NCBI RefSeq assembly: GCF_023016155.1
Contig: NZ_JALKBG010000008.1
Span: 994,501 to 1,058,500, forward strand
Direction: 5' to 3'
DNA: 64,000 bases
Source of the DNA: Aliiroseovarius sp. F20344
GTDB lineage: Bacteria; Pseudomonadota; Alphaproteobacteria; Rhodobacterales; Rhodobacteraceae
The notes under the pieces were generated by a model that worked only from the letters and a program-made list of their open reading frames with translations, did no database searches and was not told the origin of the DNA. Below are positions 16,880-21,683 of the stretch, piece by piece (position 1 is the stretch's first letter; each line of letters starts with the position of its first letter). A program made the position numbers and the translations under genes.

Positions 16880-17878
16880 ATGAGCAAAACGCCGCATTTT
16901 CCGCCTCCGCCTCCAATCCCCGAGAAGACCCGCCTGTTCCAACGAACCCCTCCGGCAATCTTCCCGCCGATCATGGGGCTGTTCGGGCTGGGTCTGGCAT
17001 GGCGCCGCGCCGCTGAAGGCTTTGGCGTTCCAGCGGCCTTTGGGGATATGATCCTTGGGGCTGTCACGCTTCTTTATCTATTTTGCCTCGTAGCTTACGT
17101 GGCAAAGTTTATGCAAAGACCCGCCACATTCTTTGAGGATCTGAAAATCCTGCCGGGACGTGCAGGCATCGTCGCCCTGGCGCTTTCAGGATACCTTATG
17201 GCGACCACGGTGGTTCCCTTTTCAACGACTTTGGCAGGCGTGATTTTCGGCTTGGCGCTGGCCGTGCATGTGGTTGTCGCCCTGCGCGTCGCCTACACTT
17301 TGATCACCGGCCCGATTGAGGCACGATCGGTCACCCCGGTCTGGCATCTGCTCTTTGTAGGTTTCATCATTAGCCCGCTGGCGGCACTGTCTTTGGGGCT
17401 TTACGCCTATTCGACCACCGTGTTTTGGGTCAGCCTTGCCATCGCGGTCGCGATCTGGGGCGCCAGCCTTGCGCAGTTCGTGCGGGCAAGTGTACCCGCG
17501 CCCTTGCGTCCGCTTCTTGCCATCCATCTGGCCCCGGCAAGCGTTCTGGGAACGGTCGCCTTTCTTATTGGACAGCCGCTGATGGGGATTATCCTGGGGC
17601 TTCTGGCTGTGTTGATTGCCTCGGTTCTGATCCTGCGCGCGCGCTGGCTAGCAGAAGCTGGCTTCAGCCCACTCTGGGGGGCGTTTACCTTCCCGCTCGC
17701 TGCCTTTGCGACACTGCTTCAGATGCTGAACCTTGTGGTGGCGTCGGACCTTTTGCGCATCCTATCAGGCCTTGTGCTTGTGGCCGCCACGCTGATCATC
17801 CCACCCATTGCCTACAAGGTGCTCATGATGTGGTCCAAGGGCGTGTTGGCGGTGAAAACCAACGCCGCTCAGGCCTAG
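16880..17878 (+). CDS. SLAC1/TehA (TDT) family transporter
   Basis: An integral membrane protein of 332 residues with about ten hydrophobic segments, of the tellurite-resistance/C4-dicarboxylate transporter (TDT, SLAC1-fold) family; IFPPIMGLFGLGLAWRRA is the typical opening. Members pass anions such as malate, tellurite or chloride, and this one's substrate is unknown. ATG 16880 has an AAAGGA site; the frame upstream is not hydrophobic and not conserved. A second family member lies at 55.0-56.0 kb. The TAG stop overlaps the convergent YjbR gene stop in CTAG. Confidence 0.85.
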   Translation: MSKTPHFPPPPPIPEKTRLFQRTPPAIFPPIMGLFGLGLAWRRAAEGFGVPAAFGDMILGAVTLLYLFCLVAYVAKFMQRPATFFEDLKILPGRAGIVALALSGYLMATTVVPFSTTLAGVIFGLALAVHVVVALRVAYTLITGPIEARSVTPVWHLLFVGFIISPLAALSLGLYAYSTTVFWVSLAIAVAIWGASLAQFVRASVPAPLRPLLAIHLAPASVLGTVAFLIGQPLMGIILGLLAVLIASVLILRARWLAEAGFSPLWGAFTFPLAAFATLLQMLNLVVASDLLRILSGLVLVAATLIIPPIAYKVLMMWSKGVLAVKTNAAQA

Positions 17879-18234
17879 CCGTTGGCCTGATCCTCAAAAG
17901 GGGGCAGGGCGGCTTGCGCCTTTTTGGTCAGGCTGCCCCGGATCAACGCGTAGGAGCGATGAATGCGGTGGGTTAGCTCCGCTTCATCCGCATCAAAGGG
18001 TAGGTTCACCCATGAGCGGTGGAAATAGGGGGCTTTTACGCCGACGCCCGCTTCGATTAACATCGTGGCAGTCTCGATATCCGGGGTTTTCACAGAAATC
18101 CCGGGTGTCTTTGCGCCAATGGCCGCAAAAATCTTACCGCCAATCTTCCACACATCATGACCGGGGCCAAAAGGCTCGGACCATTCTGCGCCCGGAAGCG
18201 CGTTACAAATCGTTTTCACTTGGTCACGTGTCAT
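17875..18234 (-). CDS. MmcQ/YjbR family protein
   Basis: A 119-residue protein of the MmcQ/YjbR family, a double-wing fold sometimes described as DNA-binding but with no settled function. The family pattern is clear: ALPGAEWSEPFGPGHDVWKIGGKIFA at the start, then SVKTPD, and APYFHRSWVNLPFDAD. It is divergent from the cysS leader region and convergent with the TDT transporter, with a 4-base stop overlap. Confidence 0.92.
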   Translation of the reverse strand: MTRDQVKTICNALPGAEWSEPFGPGHDVWKIGGKIFAAIGAKTPGISVKTPDIETATMLIEAGVGVKAPYFHRSWVNLPFDADEAELTHRIHRSYALIRGSLTKKAQAALPPFEDQANG

Positions 18235-18279
18235 GGGATCACGCTAACAGGCTTGGCAGAGGCAGGGAAGGGTGCTAGC

Positions 18280-18333
18280 GTGCGCGACATGAAACGGAAA
18301 AGCATCATCATTATTTGCTGCATTACCTGCTGA
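18280..18333 (+). CDS. Putative cysteine-rich leader peptide upstream of cysS
   Basis: A 17-codon reading frame, MRDMKRKSIIIICCITC, starts at GTG 18280 seven bases after AAGGG (18268-18272) and ends at TGA 18331-18333. An internal in-frame ATG at 18289 is an alternative start. Three of its last five codons are TGC (Cys), 93 bases before the start of the gene that charges tRNA-Cys. Cys codons are rare, so this clustering is unlikely to be chance. The arrangement is that of a leader peptide on which ribosomes pause when charged tRNA-Cys is low. The function is inference; nothing here shows it is translated. Confidence 0.6.
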   Translation: MRDMKRKSIIIICCITC

Positions 18334-18341
18334 GATACTCA

Positions 18342-18391
18342 GGCGGGCCGTTCTTCTATTCCATACATGTCAGGAACTTGCTAAGCCCGCC
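18342..18391 (+). promoter_or_regulatory. GC-rich hairpin between the cysteine leader and cysS
   Basis: GGCGGGC (18342-18348) is the exact complement of GCCCGCC (18385-18391), and inside it GTTC (18350-18353) can pair with GAAC (18374-18377). There is no T-run, so it is not an intrinsic terminator. The first arm begins 8 bases after the leader stop codon, close enough for a ribosome paused on the TGC codons to cover it. An alternative small stem CCCG/CGGG uses the second arm. Confidence 0.5.
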
Positions 18392-18426
18392 GCGGGAACA
18401 CCTATGCGCGGACGCACGAGGATAAC

Positions 18427-20067
18427 ATGACGGACATCAAGCTTTACAACACGATGGCGCGGGCGAAGCAGGACTTCATCCCGATCGACCCCAATAACGT
18501 GCGCATGTATGTCTGTGGGCCGACGGTCTATGACCGCGCCCATCTGGGTAACGCGCGCCCGGTTGTGGTGTTTGATGTGCTTTATCGCCTGCTGCGCCAT
18601 GTCTATGGGCCGGATCACGTGACCTATGTGCGCAACTTCACCGACGTGGATGACAAGATCAACGCAACCGCGTTGGCGCGTAAGGAAGCGGGCGCGGCGG
18701 GCACGCTTGAGGAACTGGTTCACGAACGCTCGAACGAGACGATCGACTGGTATCTGAACGACATGCGCGCGCTTGGGGCGATGGACCCGGATCAAATGCC
18801 CCGCGCGACCGAGTTTATCGGGCCGATGATCGACATGATCGAGGATCTGATCGCTAAGGGCCACGCCTACCCAGATGGGGCAGGGCATGTGCTGTTCTCG
18901 GTCAAAAGCTACGAGGATTACGGCCAACTGTCCGGTCGCTCGGTCGATGACATGATCGCCGGCGCACGTGTCGAGGTCGCGGATAACAAGCGCGACCCGA
19001 TGGACTTCGTGCTGTGGAAGCCGTCCACCGATGATCTGCCCGGCTGGGACAGCCCGTGGGGCCGAGGCCGCCCCGGTTGGCATATCGAATGCTCGGCGAT
19101 GAGCCACGACCTGCTGGGCGCGTCTTTTGACATACACGGTGGCGGCAATGACCTTCAGTTCCCGCACCATGAAAACGAGATTGCCCAGTCGAAATGCAGC
19201 CATCCCGATGCAGGCTTCGCGAATTACTGGCTTCACAACGAGATGCTACAGGTCGAGGGCAAGAAGATGTCCAAGTCTCTGGGGAATTTCTTCACCGTAC
19301 ATGATCTGCTGGAGCAAGGTGTGCCTGGCGAAGTGATCCGCTTTGTCTTCCTTGGCACCCATTATCGCAAGCCGATGGATTGGACCGAGAAGAAACGGGC
19401 CGAGGCGGAAGCGACCCTAAAACGTTGGCGCAAGCTCACTGCCGGAATTGAACCCGGTCTTGTAAATCCAGATGTGCTTGCCGCTCTAGGGGACGATCTG
19501 AATACGGCTGGCGCAATCTCAGAACTCTATAAGTTAGAGAGGATCGTTAACCGGCAACAAGCAGTGCCAAATGAACCAATAGATTTGCACAAAGGTGTGC
19601 TTGCAAACTTCTTGGCTTCAGCTCAGGTGATGGGCTTGCTGACGGATGAAATGGGCGATTGGGTTGGTTCGAGCTCAAGAGATGCAGGTTATGAGGACAT
19701 CCTCGAAAACCTTTTAGTAATACGAACAGCTGCACGTGCAGCTAAAGATTGGTCGCGAGCTGATATCCTGCGTGATGGTTTCAAGAATGCGGGAATCCGT
19801 ATTGTTGATACACCTGATGGACCAAAGTGGTCCATCGAGCGCGATGAGTTGGATTCGCAGCCGTACTTTCACGCTGTCAGGTCTGCATATTCAAGCGGTG
19901 ATAAAGTTGCCTACGAAGAGCAGCTTCAGATCGCAAAACGCGCGGGCGTAATTTTTTCAGAAACCCAAGACCCAAGTGTCGCACCGGCATGGAGAGGGAA
20001 ACCTGATGCGGAATTCATCTTGGAGAAGTTGGAACTTCTGAGGTCCAAATTGGAGGGGCTGCAATGA
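18427..20067 (+). CDS. cysS: Cysteinyl-tRNA synthetase with C-terminal extension
   Basis: Charges tRNA-Cys with cysteine. Class I signatures are present: HLGN at residues 39-42, KMSKS in [13 protein letters not shown] near 278, and zinc ligands Cys30, the Cys of WHIECSAMS, and the HH of FPHHENE. At 546 residues it is about 75-80 longer than usual: the protein normally ends soon after the (D)GPKW stretch (~residue 460), here followed by a charged helical tail. From about base 19430 codon use becomes visibly more AT-rich than in the 5' part and in cimA, suggesting a mosaic gene. The ATG has GAGG five bases upstream, and the stop overlaps cimA (ATGA). Confidence 0.95.
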
Positions 20068-21683
20068 CCGAACGCCTCTATCTCTACGACACAACCCTGC
20101 GCGACGGGCAGCAAACGCAGGGCGTGCAGTTCTCGCTCACAGAAAAACAGCAGATTGCCGAGGCGCTGGACGTGCTTGGCGTGGACTATATCGAGGGCGG
20201 CTGGCCCGGCGCGAACCCCACGGACAGCGACTTTTTCGACGCCGCGCCCAAGACGCGCGCGACCTTCACTGCCTTTGGTATGACCAAGCGGGCAGGGTAC
20301 TCGGCAGAAAACGACGACGTGCTGGCAGGCGTGATGAATGCGGGCACCTCTGCGGTCTGTCTGGTGGGCAAAAGTCACGATTTCCACGTCACAACCGCGC
20401 TTGGCATCACGTTGGATGAGAACGTGGAAAACATCCGCGCAACAATGGCTTACATGGTCAAGGAGGGTCGCGAGGCACTCTATGATGCCGAGCATTTCTT
20501 TGATGGCTACAAGGCCAACCCTGACTATGCACTGACCTGTGTGAAAGCCGCCTATGACGCAGGCGCGCGCTGGGTTGTGCTGTGCGACACCAATGGCGGA
20601 ACGCTTCCCCATGAAGTGCACGAGATCACCAAGGCGGTGATCGCGGCAGGTATCCCGGGTGACCATCTGGGCATCCACACCCATGACGACACTGGCAATG
20701 CCGTGGCGTGTTCTCTGGCGGCTGTCGATGCGGGAGCGCGCCAGATCCAAGGCACGCTGAACGGGCTGGGGGAACGCTGCGGCAACGCCAATCTGGTGAC
20801 GTTGATCCCGACGCTTTTGTTGAAAGAACCCTATGCGAGCCAATTTGAAACCGGTGTTTCAAAGGACGCTCTTGAACGGATCACCATAATCTCGCGCCAG
20901 TTGGACGACATCCTGAACCGTGTCCCGAACAAATCCGCGCCTTTTGTCGGCGCGTCGGCCTTTGCACATAAGGCCGGGTTGCACGCGTCCGCGATCTTGA
21001 AGGACCCGACCACCTACGAACACATCCCACCCGAAACTGTGGGCAACACGCGTATCGTGCCCATGTCAAACCAAGCAGGGCAGTCAAATCTACGCGCGCG
21101 TTTGGCCGAGGCTGGGATCGAGGTCGAAAAGGGCGATCCGCGCCTTGGTGACATCCTGAATCGCGTGAAAGAGCTGGAAGACCAGGGTTATGCCTATGAC
21201 GGGGCACAAGCCTCGTTCGAGTTGGTTGCACGTGACGTTCTGGGTCAACTGCCGCAGTTCTTTGAAGTGAAACGCTACAAGGTCACCGTTGAGCGCCGCA
21301 AGAATAAGCGCAACCAAATGATAAGCCTGTCCGAGGCCATCGTTGTCGTGAAAATCGGCGATGACAAGAAGCTGTCGGTCTCGGAAAGCATGGACGCATC
21401 CGGCACCGATCGTGGCCCGGTGAACGCGCTGGCCAAGGCGCTGGCCAAGGATCTCGGCCCCTATCAAGCGATCATCGAAGACATGCAACTGGTTGATTTT
21501 AAAGTGCGTATCACCCAAGGCGGGACCGAAGCACAGACCCGCGTCATCATCGACAGCGAAGATGCAGCGGGCCACCGCTGGTCCACGGTCGGCGTCAGCC
21601 CAAACATCGTCGATGCGTCGTTTGAGGCACTTCTGGATGCGATCCACTGGAAACTTTTGCGCGACGGGGCCACCCCGGTATGA
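20064..21683 (+). CDS. cimA: Citramalate synthase
   Basis: Condenses acetyl-CoA and pyruvate to citramalate, the first step of threonine-independent isoleucine synthesis. The 539-residue length, the DTTLRDGQQ motif at residues 9-17, the [11 protein letters not shown] metal-binding stretch near 203 and a C-terminal LeuA-type allosteric domain (from ~residue 410, [16 protein letters not shown]) fit CimA rather than 2-isopropylmalate synthase. It overlaps cysS upstream and the phytoene-synthase-like gene downstream by ATGA junctions, so the three are one translation-coupled operon. Confidence 0.92.

Follow-up and report, generated by a model that had tools for sequence, protein, structure and literature searches.

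A candidate ribosome-mediated attenuator of the uORFC-8-2 type, with a leader peptide of cysteine and isoleucine codons, ahead of cysS-cimA in Rhodobacterales

Background

In Escherichia coli, a single leader such as thrL or those of the ilv genes contains codons for more than one amino acid, each connected with the genes that follow; the trpL leader of Sinorhizobium meliloti carries Trp codons, and leaderless polycysteine frames have reportedly been found in mycobacteria. Here we analysed a 64,000-nucleotide stretch of the Aliiroseovarius sp. F20344 genome (contig NZ_JALKBG010000008.1, positions 994,501 to 1,058,500; hereafter the window, whose coordinates are used throughout), in which a short leader frame rich in cysteine and isoleucine codons stands on the plus strand ahead of cysS, encoding cysteine--tRNA ligase, and cimA, encoding citramalate synthase of the isoleucine pathway. 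The closest described system is the uORFC-8-2 motif, for which 145 examples were reported before cysS in Rhodobacterales, with tandem Cys codons, two stems, a U-run and a prediction of ribosome-mediated attenuation (PMC8632094, RNA Biology 2021). The words “isoleucine”, “citramalate” and “leaderless” do not occur in the main text of that report. Our literature search on leader peptides of citramalate synthase or isoleucine genes and on ribosome-mediated attenuation of cysS, to which subscription journals were mostly closed, returned only this report and a paper on valine production in a methanogen.

The leader described here is almost certainly a uORFC-8-2 element, to judge from its position upstream of cysS in Rhodobacterales, its AUG-initiated upstream open reading frame (uORF) and its tandem Cys codons. 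The preliminary description of this locus, made from the sequence of the window, knew of no such leader for cysS in this group; the element has in fact already been described, as a prediction, and is not new. In the published account the Cys codons usually occupy positions 14 and 15, whereas here, counted from the conserved ATG, they are codons 10 and 11, and where the motif is described with two stems and a 3' U-run, we find two mutually exclusive helices, with a U-rich tract after the first (hairpin T) and not after the second (P2a). Mycobacterial cys operons likewise have short leader frames with Cys-codon runs near the stop codon, ahead of cysteine genes (PMC1262725). Those leaders, as far as the accessible part of that report goes, have no conserved terminator hairpin, precede cysteine biosynthesis operons and are not said to contain an Ile run; here, in contrast, a conserved hairpin with a U-rich tail precedes a synthetase gene and an isoleucine-pathway gene. 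A further alphaproteobacterial parallel is trpL of S. meliloti, which encodes a 14-residue leader peptide on an RNA that starts at the AUG (PMC7298713). The length is the same here, and the RNA start, reported for trpL, is suggested in our case by promoter geometry; trpL precedes trp genes, whereas this leader precedes cysS-cimA. Unlike the thrL and ilv leaders, whose amino acids belong to one pathway, this leader would combine a signal for a synthetase (Cys) with one for biosynthesis (Ile).

We put at roughly 0.7 the probability that the region is a ribosome-mediated transcription attenuator of the uORFC-8-2 type ahead of cysS-cimA, by which Cys-tRNA and probably Ile-tRNA would be sensed. Taken separately, an attenuator that senses cysteine is highly probable, and sensing of isoleucine in addition has somewhat less than an even chance.

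Results and discussion

The leader open reading frame (18289..18333, plus strand) comprises 14 codons encoding MKRKSIIIICCITC and a stop, and is probably translated without a leader sequence of its own. It ends in ICCITC-TGA, with the stop at 18331-18333, three TGC among the last five codons and a tandem TGC-TGC at 18316-18321, which corresponds to codons 10-11 from ATG 18289 and 13-14 from GTG 18280. Conservation was assessed in up to 330 bases upstream of cysS at 110 loci (80 named, 30 unnamed), about 21 of them from the genus of the window and one (L097) from the same genome as another (L002). Of the 110 loci, 82 carry a short frame that has Cys and Ile towards its end (score at least 8, a score fixed after a first listing had been viewed); dinucleotide-shuffled versions of these regions would give 0.35. 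The conserved leader peptide with tandem Cys codons and attenuator features that the preliminary description had proposed before cysS is thus borne out. Furthermore, a covariance model built from 76 of the leader sequences matches 310 of 394 genomes of the family at E of 0.01 or less, nearly all of them from different genera. The genome of the window has a single match, at cysS (E 2.5e-25, for a sequence in the model's own training set; the next stands at 1.95). Among 289 genomes drawn from the class, strong scores were obtained only for the window's own genome and three of its family, while six outside the family score weakly (E 1.6e-4 to 0.009) and none of these six loci shows cysS or cimA. 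By name, the named leader loci are mostly Rhodobacterales, with a few metagenome-assembled genomes labelled only Alphaproteobacteria and one Neomegalonema (L061). On this comparison the leader is a real, conserved attenuator candidate and not a product of chance.

At the Neomegalonema locus L061 the leader is present and the region downstream of it is different and longer; a second Neomegalonema locus, L064, has an apparent leader remnant lacking start and stop. A few genomes (G123, G165, G261, G268, G302, G304, G309 and others) have two matches to the covariance model each. Selenocysteine insertion or other readthrough of the TGA, with the hairpin assisting, was ruled out: TAA is the stop in 10 of 80 leaders, and visual inspection showed no continuing frame common to relatives.

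As in classical attenuators, the leader is rich in the amino acids proposed to regulate. In the last nine residues of 80 leaders we counted 302 Ile, 219 Cys and 87 Thr out of 720, with Phe, Val, Met, Asn and Leu rare. Counting codons back from the stop, 78 of the 80 leaders have Ile at -3, 67 have Cys at -4 and 63 have Cys at -5. The preliminary description had read the leader as a cysteine sensor; the tandem Cys codons before cysS agree with that, whereas the Ile codons had been overlooked, and cimA had been named yet not linked to them. There are 59 different arrangements of I and C among the 80 leaders, some without CC and nonetheless retaining both residues, and the N-terminus varies between relatives, which fits reading of codons and not a fixed arrest peptide. 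Thus a peptide that arrests the ribosome by its own sequence, or one that works in trans like trpL of S. meliloti, is very improbable, even though this one is short, hydrophobic and Cys-rich and a trans-acting leader peptide from an RNA starting at its AUG has precedent (PMC7298713).

Around and beyond the stop codon, two helices stand out. An open helix search on 57 less redundant sequences returned as its two best helices alignment columns 17-22/36-41 and 36-42/85-91; these use common bases and hence are mutually exclusive. The first belongs to hairpin T, a candidate terminator stem at 18326..18347 (plus strand), composed of the 5' arm CCTGCTGAG (18326-18334), the loop ATA and a 3' arm of CTCA, a bulged G and GCGGG. 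The leader stop codon falls inside it, and its fold energy in the window is -10.8 kcal/mol. From 12 bases before to 20 bases after the end of the stop, the local fold has a mean z of -1.98 over 77 loci, 65 of which lie below -1; for the longer stretch from -45 to +66, z is -0.73. On alignment A1 (76 rows), 83.4% of hairpin T cells are paired versus 78.9% in shuffled and 18-48% in slid alignments, with a covariation score of 0.228 versus 0.164 (0 of 500 shuffles) and 0.052-0.104, respectively. A U-rich tract, TTCTTCTATTCC (18351..18362, plus strand), follows hairpin T. Across relatives, T makes up 58% and 48% of the six-base bins starting 18 and 24 bases past the leader stop, and a stretch with at least 5 T in 8 bases follows the GCGGG arm in 62 of 77 leaders, compared to 2 of 76 in a control stretch further down.

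The second helix, P2a, pairs GGCGGGC (18342..18348), which begins eight bases past the leader stop and overlaps the 3' arm of hairpin T, with GCCCGCC (18385..18391, plus strand) 36 bases beyond it, exactly as the preliminary description had noted together with the 93 bases between the leader stop and the cysS ATG. In columns 36-42/85-91 of the alignment, 91.1% of cells are paired and two pairs show changes on both sides. When the stop-codon stem, P2a and an inner stem are considered jointly, 78.7% of cells are paired versus 73.1% shuffled and 34-46% slid, and the score is 0.190 versus 0.117 (0 of 500 shuffles) and 0.052-0.096, respectively; the inner stem (columns 47 and 53-56 with 72-76) is weak, at 61-63% paired. 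P2a as a terminator was ruled out, since no U-rich stretch follows it.

These features bear on how the leader would act. The preliminary description reported no T-run and proposed a translational or Rho-dependent output; the first statement is true after GCCCGCC and does not hold after hairpin T, whose U-rich tail makes transcription termination the simpler reading, although the window's own copy fails a strict terminator scan. Action through Rho-dependent termination or through cysS translation, with P2a or the pyrimidine-rich loop (18349-18362) as the working part, would be consistent with the weak U-tract, the failed scan and the high pairing of P2a, whose arms (GTCAGGCGGGCC) are retained, along with a promoter-like element, upstream of cysS at the leaderless locus L066. 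Against this stand the conjunction of hairpin T and a U-rich tract soon after it in those 62 of 77 loci and the Shine-Dalgarno-like site of cysS (GAGGA, 18418..18422, plus strand), which lies 26 bases past P2a and in neither helix. Hence we regard this alternative as improbable and prefer transcription attenuation at hairpin T.

The leader is preceded by a predicted promoter, P1 (18253..18281, plus strand), with a -35 element TTGGCA (18253-18258), a 17-base spacer and a -10 element TAGCGT (18276-18281); transcription would be expected to start at about 18288-18289. A strict sigma-70 consensus scan gave no match at P1. Among relatives, however, the pattern TTG-N17/18-TA with its hexamer ending 6-8 bases ahead of the leader ATG occurs in 67 of 80 leaders versus 1.4 expected from shuffles. 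Only 2 of the 80 leader ATGs have a Shine-Dalgarno-like 4-mer in front of them; for the start of the cysS match the figure is 64 of 80. Together, the P1 geometry and the absent Shine-Dalgarno site suggest that translation of the leader probably begins right at the 5' end of the RNA. The preliminary description had placed the start at GTG 18280, seven bases after an AAGGG ribosome-binding site at 18268-18272. Those letters are where it put them, but the AAGGG sits within P1 and the start common to relatives is ATG 18289 and not the GTG.

A second promoter-like element, a candidate internal promoter of cysS, lies at 18359..18387 (plus strand) and reads TTCCAT, 17 bases and TAAGCC (in extended form TGC-TAAGCC), from which transcription would start at about 18394. 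We searched within 120 bases of cysS for TTYY followed by TGnTA or TAnTA. With a 17-base spacer the pattern occurs in 60 of the 80 leader loci, where 0.6 would be expected, and in 9 of the 18 leaderless ones, where the expectation is 0.2; with spacers of 13-15 and 18-21 there were 0-2 occurrences. Spacers of 16 and 22 gave 25 and 26 occurrences in leader loci, which we attribute to the same sites counted from the next T and to the U-rich tract. The element lacks the -7 T, as do most of the alphaproteobacterial promoters analysed in one study (PMC8407463). Transcription beginning downstream of 18333, which the preliminary description had named as fatal to its proposal, is therefore a live possibility for part of the transcription, and the element may provide a basal cysS supply that bypasses the leader. 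That most cysS mRNA arises there, so that the leader matters little or only in some conditions, is a stronger claim, which the frequency of the pattern and its missing -7 T favour; we nonetheless think it unlikely, given that its -35 element is not TTG and that hundreds of genomes have kept both the leader and P1, which implies selection on them.

The genes behind the leader form a close pair: cysS (18427..20067, plus strand; TIGR00435, 449.5 bits, cut-off 340) and cimA (20064..21683, plus strand; TIGR00977, 599.4 bits, cut-off 450) overlap by 4 bases, the stop of the one and the ATG of the other sharing ATGA at 20064. This arrangement goes with the leader. Of the 82 leader loci, all 77 that could be checked have cimA directly after cysS, and in the other five the DNA ends within 586 bases of the cysS match; conversely, none of 10 loci without an adjacent cimA, and with enough DNA on both sides, has the leader. 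We also compared 80 of the 310 genomes matched by the covariance model with 80 of the 84 unmatched ones, which include some divergent leaders. Citramalate synthase is present in 79 of the former 80 (74 of 74 near-complete genomes) versus 61 of the latter 80 (54 of 64 near-complete), with a Fisher p of 0.0003 for the near-complete genomes, not corrected for kinship. On a cysS tree (FastTree, 91 rows), which is poorly resolved with 34 of 88 inner branches open, leader and cimA change together in 4.5 of 5 starred pairs on average and never in the opposite way. At L066 the leader is gone, and the genome is without a close CimA (best match 31% identical).

Whether the Ile codons carry a signal of their own decides between our reading and that of a Cys-only attenuator for cysS as published for uORFC-8-2, in which they would be filler keeping the leader unstructured and cimA merely the next gene. 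The latter agrees with cysS being the first gene, with the frequent Cys at -4 and -5, and with the part of PMC8632094 accessible to us, which names cysteine alone. The Ile at -3, nearly always ATT as though picked at base level, would also suit it, as would the relocated cimA of two genomes (L117, L118), before which no leader of its own was seen. On the other hand, Ile outnumbers Cys and is near-invariant at -3, and Phe, Asn, Leu, Val and Met, whose codons are likewise AT-rich, are seldom present; leaders that have lost CC retain I and C; and no leader was found without an adjacent cimA among the checkable loci. We accordingly consider the Cys-only explanation rather unlikely, about on a par with a dominant internal promoter, and favour a leader that reads both amino acids.

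The comparison itself shows the leader with its Cys and Ile content, the two mutually exclusive pairings, the U-rich tail, the geometry of P1 and the association with cimA. From these features we infer a sequence of events: where transcription starts, that the leader is translated, that the ribosome stalls, that transcription terminates, what starvation does and what P2a contributes. RNA from P1 would start at or beside the AUG, and a ribosome would start directly on the 14 codons of the leader. A shortage of Cys-tRNA (read at codons -5 and -4) or of Ile-tRNA (read at codon -3 and perhaps in the Ile run ahead of it) would make the ribosome wait there, and its front edge would mask CCTGCTGAG, so that hairpin T would be blocked. 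The polymerase would then continue into cysS-cimA, and the freed GGCGGGC could pair with GCCCGCC. With both tRNAs charged, the ribosome would complete the leader and depart, hairpin T would form before the U-rich tail and transcription from P1 would stop, while the internal promoter would maintain a basal, unattenuated supply. In E. coli, counted from the P-site codon's first base, the ribosome footprint extends forward by about 15 bases. By this rule, a wait for Cys at 18316 or 18319 would bring the front edge to 18328 or 18331; a wait for Ile at 18322 would bring it to 18334. Given the 5' arm of hairpin T at 18326-18334, the Cys codons would mask part of the arm and the near-invariant Ile codon all of it. 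The preliminary description had the stalled ribosome cover GGCGGGC; with a reach of only about 18328-18331 from TGC-TGC, that arm, which begins at 18342, would stay uncovered, and part of the 5' arm of hairpin T would be covered instead.

Several observations weigh against an attenuator of this kind. As to the codons, most of the Ile run lies too far upstream for masking hairpin T. The Ile at -3 is ATT in 75 of 80 leaders, whereas cysS genes favour ATC (1026 versus 368), which points to a constraint at base level there besides the amino acid. Codon -2 is mostly N-[C/T]-C and codon -1 mostly TGC, CGC, CAC or GGC, matching the needs of hairpin T, and Thr, Ile or Pro at -2 and Cys or Arg at -1 are thus partly dictated by the hairpin. 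As to the structures, changes on both sides of hairpin T occur only in the inner, stop-codon stem, its outer pairs (columns 17-20) varying on one side only; the pairs of columns 21 and 22 hold in 47% and 56%; and two of its five measures, pairs and pair types, do not beat shuffles (411 of 500 and 366 of 500), nor do two measures of the joint stems (157 of 500 and 43 of 500). RNAalifold on alignment A1 gave a nearly empty consensus structure, and a fold of 155 bases in the window did not improve on shuffles (z -0.28). The strict terminator scan found no terminator at the hairpin T site of the window; CCG separates the stem from the U-rich tract, which starts three bases after it, and a run of at least 4 T occurs in only 18 of 76 loci. 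A classical antiterminator precedes its terminator, whereas the 3' arm of P2a is transcribed later than hairpin T and cannot compete in time in the usual way; for this reason direct masking by the ribosome is proposed instead. Finally, on the tree, five starred independent pairs carry the association of cimA with the leader (p 0.0625), and the leader is absent from 8 of the 75 rows that have cimA.

On the side opposite cysS, the leader region is bounded by a divergent YjbR-family gene (17875-18234, minus strand). A scan of the window with Rfam 15 at gathering scores found two tRNAs only and no riboswitch, T-box or other RNA family. Elsewhere in the same genome, an acetolactate synthase gene (TIGR00118) lies behind a frame, MSGVLVIVRNWRMGR, that has a GC-rich hairpin and TTTTTT after it (L139, bases ~1180-1503; one site, inspected by eye). 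This frame carries Val, Leu and Ile codons and resembles a classical ilv-type attenuator, which suggests that the genome may use ribosome-read Val/Leu/Ile leaders elsewhere.

Conclusions

What the present comparison adds to the published motif is the proposal that it is a Cys-plus-Ile leader of cysS-cimA and not a Cys-only leader of cysS, a correction that can be tested. In its full form, we offer only tentatively the view that a single leader responds to both cysteine and isoleucine, two unrelated amino acids, and thereby links provision of Cys-tRNA synthetase to the enzyme that opens the citramalate-type isoleucine pathway across most of the family, with the ribosome starting at the extreme 5' end of the transcript and an internal promoter as backup. 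If true, one attenuator would couple a tRNA synthetase to the pathway of another amino acid in abundant marine bacteria.

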